From contig NZFO01000010.1 in the NCBI GenBank assembly GCA_002690705.1, positions 74,305-138,304 of the forward strand: a DNA stretch of 64,000 nucleotides. Direction: 5' to 3'. The notes beneath the pieces were generated by a model, which did no database searches, was not told the DNA's origin, and saw only the letters and a program-made list of their open reading frames with translations. Source of the DNA: Magnetovibrio sp. (lineage in GTDB: Bacteria; Pseudomonadota; Alphaproteobacteria; Rhodospirillales; Casp-alpha2). A program made the position numbers and the translations under genes. Shown piece after piece: positions 9,811 to 31,845 of the stretch. Within the stretch, counting starts at the first letter, position 1. Each line of letters opens with the position of its first letter.

Positions 9811-10236
9811 ATGTTTGAAAATAGAATTGAAGAAATGTGTGTCGAGAAGAATATAAAGATGACAGACCAACGGCGGGTCATCGCAAGAGTGCTCTCGTTG
9901 GCTGAAGATCATCCTGATGTGGAAGAAGTTCACAAGCGCGCGAATAAAATCGACGCACGGATATCCATCGCCACAGTCTATCGCACTGTTAGACTTTGGG
10001 ATGAAGCAGGAATTCTTGATCGACATGATTTTGGGGATGGGCGTGCACGATACGAAGAGGTGAAGGAAGAGCACCATGATCATTTGATTGATGTTAAAAA
10101 CGGGACAGTTATCGAATTTCAAAATGCTGAAATTGAAGCTTTGCAAGAAAAAATTGCTCGGAAACATGGCATGCGTTTGATTGATCATCGTCTAGAGCTG
10201 TATGCTGTACCTTTGGGTAAAAATTCTGACTCTTGA
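9811..10236 (+). CDS. Fur family metal-responsive regulator (Fur/Mur-like)
   Basis: A 141-residue Fur-family protein starting at ATG 9811, behind GAGAG; a TTG four codons earlier is possible. The winged-helix domain reads MTDQRRVIARVL followed by ISIATVYRTVRLWDEAGIL. The metal-binding dimerisation domain contains HHDHLIDVKNGTVIEF, the canonical regulatory-site motif. The CxxC pairs of Zn-containing Fur proteins are absent, as in many alphaproteobacterial Fur/Mur proteins. It represses iron or manganese uptake when loaded with metal; which metal cannot be told. It lies 126 bp upstream of miaB, a conserved neighbourhood. Confidence 0.9.
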   Translation: MFENRIEEMCVEKNIKMTDQRRVIARVLSLAEDHPDVEEVHKRANKIDARISIATVYRTVRLWDEAGILDRHDFGDGRARYEEVKEEHHDHLIDVKNGTVIEFQNAEIEALQEKIARKHGMRLIDHRLELYAVPLGKNSDS

Positions 10237-31213: not shown

Positions 31214-31230
31214 TTTAGAATCATTCTAAA
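31214..31230. promoter_or_regulatory. Irr box (iron control element) before rubrerythrin
   Basis: TTTAGAATCATTCTAAA is a perfect 7-3-7 inverted repeat that fits the published Irr-box/ICE consensus TTTAGAA-N3-TTCTAAA at every fixed position. It ends 5 bp before the -35 hexamer of the rubrerythrin promoter, 30 bp after the irr stop codon. Regulation of rubrerythrin by Irr is therefore likely. The position just upstream of -35 leaves repression and activation both open. Confidence 0.85.
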
Positions 31231-31235
31231 GGGTG

Positions 31236-31266
31236 TTGACTTTTGCAAAAGCCAACAACATATAAA
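31236..31266 (+). promoter_or_regulatory. Candidate sigma-70 promoter of the rubrerythrin operon
   Basis: TTGACT (31236-31241) and a TATA-rich -10 (TATAAA 31261-31266, or CATATA 31259-31264 at 17-bp spacing) form a promoter. The -35 region also lies in a near-perfect palindrome, arms TTGACTTTTG and CAAAAGCCAA (31236-31255, one mismatch), which could be a second operator. The transcript would have a leader of about 90 nt. Confidence 0.6.
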
Positions 31267-31821: not shown

Positions 31822-31845
31822 AAGGGGAGGCTTGGCCCTCCCCTT
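31822..31845. terminator. Strong hairpin after rubrerythrin
   Basis: The 9-bp perfect stem AAGGGGAGG (31822-31830) with CCTCCCCTT (31837-31845) has a 6-nt loop. On the plus strand it is followed only by ATTCC, so it may act as a partial terminator or 3' stabiliser that keeps rubrerythrin mRNA in excess over the downstream genes. On the minus strand it would have a good T run. Confidence 0.5.

Follow-up and report, generated by a model that had tools for sequence, protein, structure and literature searches.

In a 64,000-nucleotide window from Magnetovibrio sp., we identified a well-conserved predicted Irr operator, the palindrome TTTAGAATCATTCTAAA, between the gene of the iron response regulator Irr and an operon encoding rubrerythrin (rbr), an RFO-type oxidoreductase and a DUF3501 protein. 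We estimate at roughly 0.82 the probability that this sequence is the operator through which Irr directly controls rbr-RFO-DUF3501, more likely as a low-iron repressor that would be relieved by haem or peroxide. Since the irr-box-rbr arrangement is recurrent across Alphaproteobacteria, direct iron control of the rbr operon appears very likely, and the original prediction, which proposed direct iron/haem control of this operon by the adjoining Irr, is supported by the sequence comparisons described below.

The box is an exact 17-mer that forms a perfect 8-1-8 palindrome, and re-scanning of its positions confirmed the proposed match to the Irr box TTTAGAA-N3-TTCTAAA at all 14 fixed positions (14/14). 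It starts 29 nt past the end of irr and is followed, after 5 nt (GGGTG), by the hexamer TTGACT; the distances given at the outset (30 bp past irr and 5 bp before the -35) were right within one base. In the whole genome (3,026,532 bases in 21 contigs) this is the only perfect Irr box, no site with one mismatch was present in the same 3,026,532 bases, and sites with two mismatches numbered about 20. Within the window, the scan allowing up to three mismatches returned a single other match, itself with three mismatches, where chance alone gave a mean of 0.57. At the same threshold 257 Irr-box sites were counted genome-wide versus 369 for the reversed control motif, and thus the motif is without general enrichment in this genome. 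Fourteen of the two-mismatch sites were inspected and lay mostly within ORFs; no downstream ORF was recognised by eye as an iron gene, and a large Irr regulon in the genome was rejected. Autoregulation of irr by a box of its own was likewise rejected, the best match before irr here being 9/14 and partial boxes preceding irr in some relatives only. A plasmid origin of the region was also rejected, as no match was obtained.

Features of the irr-rbr locus, with positions counted from the first nucleotide of the window and the basis of each assignment.
Feature	Position	Strand	Basis
irr, Fur-superfamily iron response regulator, 137 aa	30771-31184	+	NCBIfam IrrA; Pfam FUR; alignment with 29 relatives
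Predicted Irr box / iron control element (ICE), TTTAGAATCATTCTAAA	31214-31230	.	perfect palindrome; position kept in 27 relatives
Putative -35 element of the rbr promoter, TTGACT	31236-31241	+	TTGAC 1-5 nt past the box in 28/28 irr-rbr intergenic regions
Putative -10 region of the rbr promoter, CATATAAA	31259-31266	+	aligned with CATATT of relatives
rbr, aerobic-type rubrerythrin without rubredoxin domain, 138 aa	31361-31777	+	Pfam Rubrerythrin, 103 bits
GC-rich hairpin of 9 bp between rbr and RFO	31822-31845	.	terminator resemblance confined to the - strand
RFO-type CCG-domain Fe-S oxidoreductase (GlpC-like), 448 aa	31946-33292	+	Pfam CCG; synteny
DUF3501 protein, 196 aa	33319-33909	+	Pfam DUF3501, 192 bits

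The RBR-RFO-DUF3501 trio is the aerobic rubrerythrin cluster of Cardenas et al. 2016 (PMC5114695), and the genes of the window conform to it, with RFO and DUF3501 adjacent to a rubrerythrin gene whose product has no rubredoxin domain. Solved relatives of this rubrerythrin are 9onm and 4di0 (E ~1e-70) and sulerythrin, and the RFO protein matched the NCBIfam GlpC models below their cut-off. The stem of the hairpin between rbr and RFO is found in the + strand fold as well (z of the region -2.1); the rbr transcript could be trimmed or in part terminated by this element, which could also set differing mRNA levels of rbr and RFO.

The gene order fabI-irr-rbr-RFO is kept in relatives, and in all 28 irr-rbr intergenic regions compared (own and 27 from the family and order) a TTTAGAA-type box stands 1-5 nt upstream of TTGAC. 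In the 27 relatives the box matched at a mean of 11.0 of 14 positions, against a mean of 7.2 and a maximum of 8.0 in 1000 shuffles. The original prediction had been made to depend on conservation of the palindrome at this promoter in close relatives, and the box is indeed kept before rbr throughout these 28 regions. Box columns 2, 3, 4, 6, 12 and 15 are invariant in them; the left half-site is near-invariant whereas the half adjoining the -35 is often weak, with positions 13 and 14 matching in 54% and 39%, so that the perfect palindrome of our genome represents the strong end of a range. Weakness of the right half-site in many relatives counts against the Irr reading, as does the altered histidine motif of the window Irr described below. 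A strict 14/14 site is rare in the family (3 of 48 genomes, own included), and it is the position and a looser motif that are conserved, rather than the strict palindrome. In one family member a perfect box precedes a peroxiredoxin gene, and in two further relatives (L007 and L011) no rbr was found within the 3.4-kb stretch around irr.

Furthermore, without anchoring on any gene, we screened 385 alphaproteobacterial genomes for perfect boxes with TTGAC no more than 8 nt downstream. The search yielded 20 matches, of which 14 (that of our genome among them) stand between irr and rbr, in about ten families; perfection of the box among these matches is given by construction, their genomic location is not. 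The reversed control motif with TTGAC gave 0 matches in the same 385 genomes. The remaining six matches precede sufB (four, in one genus, one of them Pfam-tested), a catalase gene and a DUF2061 gene. Coupling of the box to irr was also observed in an outside test of eighty named rbr loci, where the box stands before TTGAC in most named alphaproteobacteria whose irr precedes rbr (Magnetovibrio, Sneathiella, SAR116, Kiloniellaceae and others), the exceptions including L068, L136 and L140, and where the TTTAGAA box is absent from Alphaproteobacteria without irr beside rbr (Sphingomonadales, Phenylobacterium). Three loci of Sphingomonadales (L082, L124 and L147) display, in place of the Irr box, a TTGCGAATnATTCGCAA-type palindrome about 110 nt before rbr, possibly marking a switch to another Fur-family regulator. 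In addition, one alphaproteobacterial genome of 1.4 Mb has two perfect Irr boxes before rbr, 32 nt apart and flanking the -35 (L053, 1501-1549).

Relatives keep TTGACT and, at a spacing of 17 nt, CATATT. Our genome offers a poor -10, either TATAAA at 19-nt spacing or CATATA at 17, and the promoter scan of its own sequence did not call the rbr promoter. Measured from the +1, which like all promoter elements and start sites used here was derived from sequence, the box centre lies at about -49 to -51 in our genome and at a median of -48 (range -51 to -45) in the 28 alphaproteobacterial irr-rbr promoters, in none of which (0/28) does the box cover the -10.

The irr product passes the NCBIfam IrrA equivalog (175.3 bits, cut-off 150) and fails both PerR models (PerRA, 51.5 bits with a cut-off of 200; PerRB, 49.2 with a cut-off of 250). 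The N-terminal haem regulatory motif (Cys-Pro) is absent from the window Irr, as it is from the haem-binding Irr of R. sphaeroides, Brucella and R. leguminosarum (PMC3413700), and the motif is thus not required for haem binding. The haem-binding histidine motif of the window Irr is HYH, compared with HHH in 29/29 aligned relatives: the outer histidines of HxH are kept and the middle one is lost. Because Irr of Rhodobacter (HPH) and of Brucella (Gln in the middle) still bind haem (PMC3413700), the window Irr is plausibly functional, and its haem response may be altered relative to that of the HHH relatives. HYH was also noted in two gammaproteobacterial Irr-like proteins (L174 and L175). Besides irr, the genome contains two further Fur-family genes, one a Fur-type regulator gene in the same window (9811-10236; 98.8 bits to Fur, below the cut-off of 146, and 46.8 to IrrA) and the other encoding a very divergent protein with 24.6 bits to Pfam FUR.

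Among the eighty named loci, many gammaproteobacterial rbr loci carry the same palindrome with no irr adjacent. The prediction that the box exists beside irr only therefore failed, and the presence of a box is not enough to identify Irr. The 17-mer is identical at three of these loci (L077, L126 and L137) and others have the sister palindrome TTTAGAC-N3-GTCTAAA; the same or the sister palindrome was seen upstream of rbr in these three and in L075, L079, L085, L098, L105, L115, L116, L121, L125 and L141. The gammaproteobacterial box covers the -10 or lies shortly beyond the inferred start (-10/+1). Many of these Gammaproteobacteria encode a second Fur-family protein that scores 107-140 bits to IrrA, below the cut-off of 150, where an ordinary Fur scores about 45-68 bits. 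These Irr-like proteins mostly have the HHH motif, their genes mostly lie elsewhere than the rbr locus, and they form one clade (100/100) that joins the alphaproteobacterial Irr against Fur (100/99). When PerR was added to the tree, the solved Leptospira PerR fell inside the gammaproteobacterial Irr-like clade on a long branch; because of such long branches the place of PerR is unsure and only the split of Irr type from Fur type was used. An Irr/PerRA-like protein is encoded in 13/18 genomes whose rbr box matches at least 11/14 positions versus 4/35 others (Fisher p = 1.5e-5, without correction for ancestry).

Repression is the favoured sign of control. The converse, that Irr binds and at iron shortage activates rbr from just upstream of the -35, we consider less likely, even though a site centred near -48 leaves the -10 uncovered and would suit an activator, as the positions in the 28 promoters do. 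Irr is capable of activating (PMC7762939), and the Pelagibacter rbr, whose promoter lies outside this analysis, was up 1.57-fold under iron limitation (PMC2864753), which is opposite to simple repression. Against activation, the known Irr targets in iron storage and export, mbfA and bfr in Bradyrhizobium, are repressed (PMC4902296), and R. sphaeroides ccpA, whose geometry is similar (we place its start about 40 nt past the box), is weakly repressed, its expression being 1.8-fold higher when irr is mutated and iron is limiting (PMC3413700). Moreover, the gammaproteobacterial box over -10/+1 sits at a repressor position and is hardly readable other than as repression. The initial view that the sign is not readable from position thus stands in part: box placement in Gammaproteobacteria and the known Irr targets constrain it, and activation keeps some weight.

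It appears improbable that the palindrome is read not by Irr but by another Fur-family protein (Fur/Mur, Zur type or PerR). TTTAGAATCATTCTAAA is also PerR-box-like, the gammaproteobacterial loci carry the palindrome, three of them as the identical 17-mer, where irr is not the neighbour, and two additional Fur-family genes are at hand in the genome; however, one of these is of Fur type and the other very divergent, the gammaproteobacterial box tracks the Irr/PerRA-like protein and not Fur, and Sphingomonadales and Phenylobacterium, with no irr beside rbr, also have no TTTAGAA box. That the palindrome arose by chance, or that it is structural and belongs to the 3' end of irr, can hardly be credited. 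The short distance from irr, where no terminator was found, would fit such an element, but the box has no T-tract, has no second perfect copy in the 3 Mb, and occupies the expected, conserved position.

Irr without haem binds the ICE and can repress or activate (PMC7762939), and Irr of Bradyrhizobium is degraded on H2O2 (PMC4902296). For the repressing Irr favoured here, we infer that at low haem or iron a dimer supplied by the neighbouring gene would bind just upstream of the -35, centred at about -49, and would most likely keep transcription of the rbr operon low, which would spare iron otherwise spent on a di-iron protein and an Fe-S protein. A rise in haem, or inactivation of Irr by peroxide, would release the operon, and peroxide would be scavenged.

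Irr is best known as a global iron regulator of rhizobia and Brucella. Irr regulons were reportedly predicted by Rodionov et al. 2006, and irr-rbr sites were possibly among those predictions, which limits our claim of novelty. In Rhizobiales and Rhodobacter, the Irr/ICE regulons (bfr, mbfA, ccpA, suf) resemble the window in operator consensus, in the IrrA-family regulator and in iron/peroxide targets. They differ in that their target mbfA is a membrane ferritin (termed rubrerythrin-like there), whereas the predicted target in the window is the soluble aerobic-type rbr-RFO-DUF3501 adjoining irr, and in that strict boxes in our genome number one. The aerobic-type rubrerythrin cluster (Cardenas et al. 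2016, PMC5114695; sulerythrin, ferriperoxin) has the same three genes and no rubredoxin domain, while the cluster of the window carries, in addition, a defined, predicted operator; the words Fur and Irr are both absent from the main text of that paper (PMC5114695), and no treatment of the regulation of the aerobic rbr operon was found in the literature examined. PerR and Leptospira PerRA are Fur-superfamily kin of the window Irr, and the perRA operator was reported to be similar to Irr boxes (PMC8638967), but these proteins sense peroxide via bound metal rather than haem, and PerRA gives 51 bits with the window protein versus 175 for IrrA.

The strict boxes point to a local circuit with one target, in which an iron/haem sensor adjoins, and is apparently wired into, a peroxide-scavenging operon. 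New here is that the gammaproteobacterial rbr palindrome over -10/+1 correlates with a genome-encoded Irr/PerRA-like protein. Conservation across Alphaproteobacteria, together with the pairing of operator and Irr-like protein in Gammaproteobacteria, suggests a core ancestral link between iron status and peroxide defence; the circuit shared with Gammaproteobacteria is possibly new, and the Irr-rbr circuit may be older than Alphaproteobacteria. Tentatively, and with somewhat less than an even chance, a single Fur-superfamily lineage (alphaproteobacterial Irr, gammaproteobacterial Irr-like proteins and Leptospira PerRA) would have controlled the aerobic rubrerythrin operon by way of the same palindrome, in an association that predates the split of Alpha- and Gammaproteobacteria or was transferred, the operator having shifted from -10/+1 in the latter to upstream of the -35 in the former, perhaps with a change of sign or strength. 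As a separate observation, in lucinid-symbiont Gammaproteobacteria (L071, L073 and L080; about 1757-2321, - strand) the Irr-like gene and rbr are divergently oriented, with a box-like sequence, weak (9/14) in L080, between the two.
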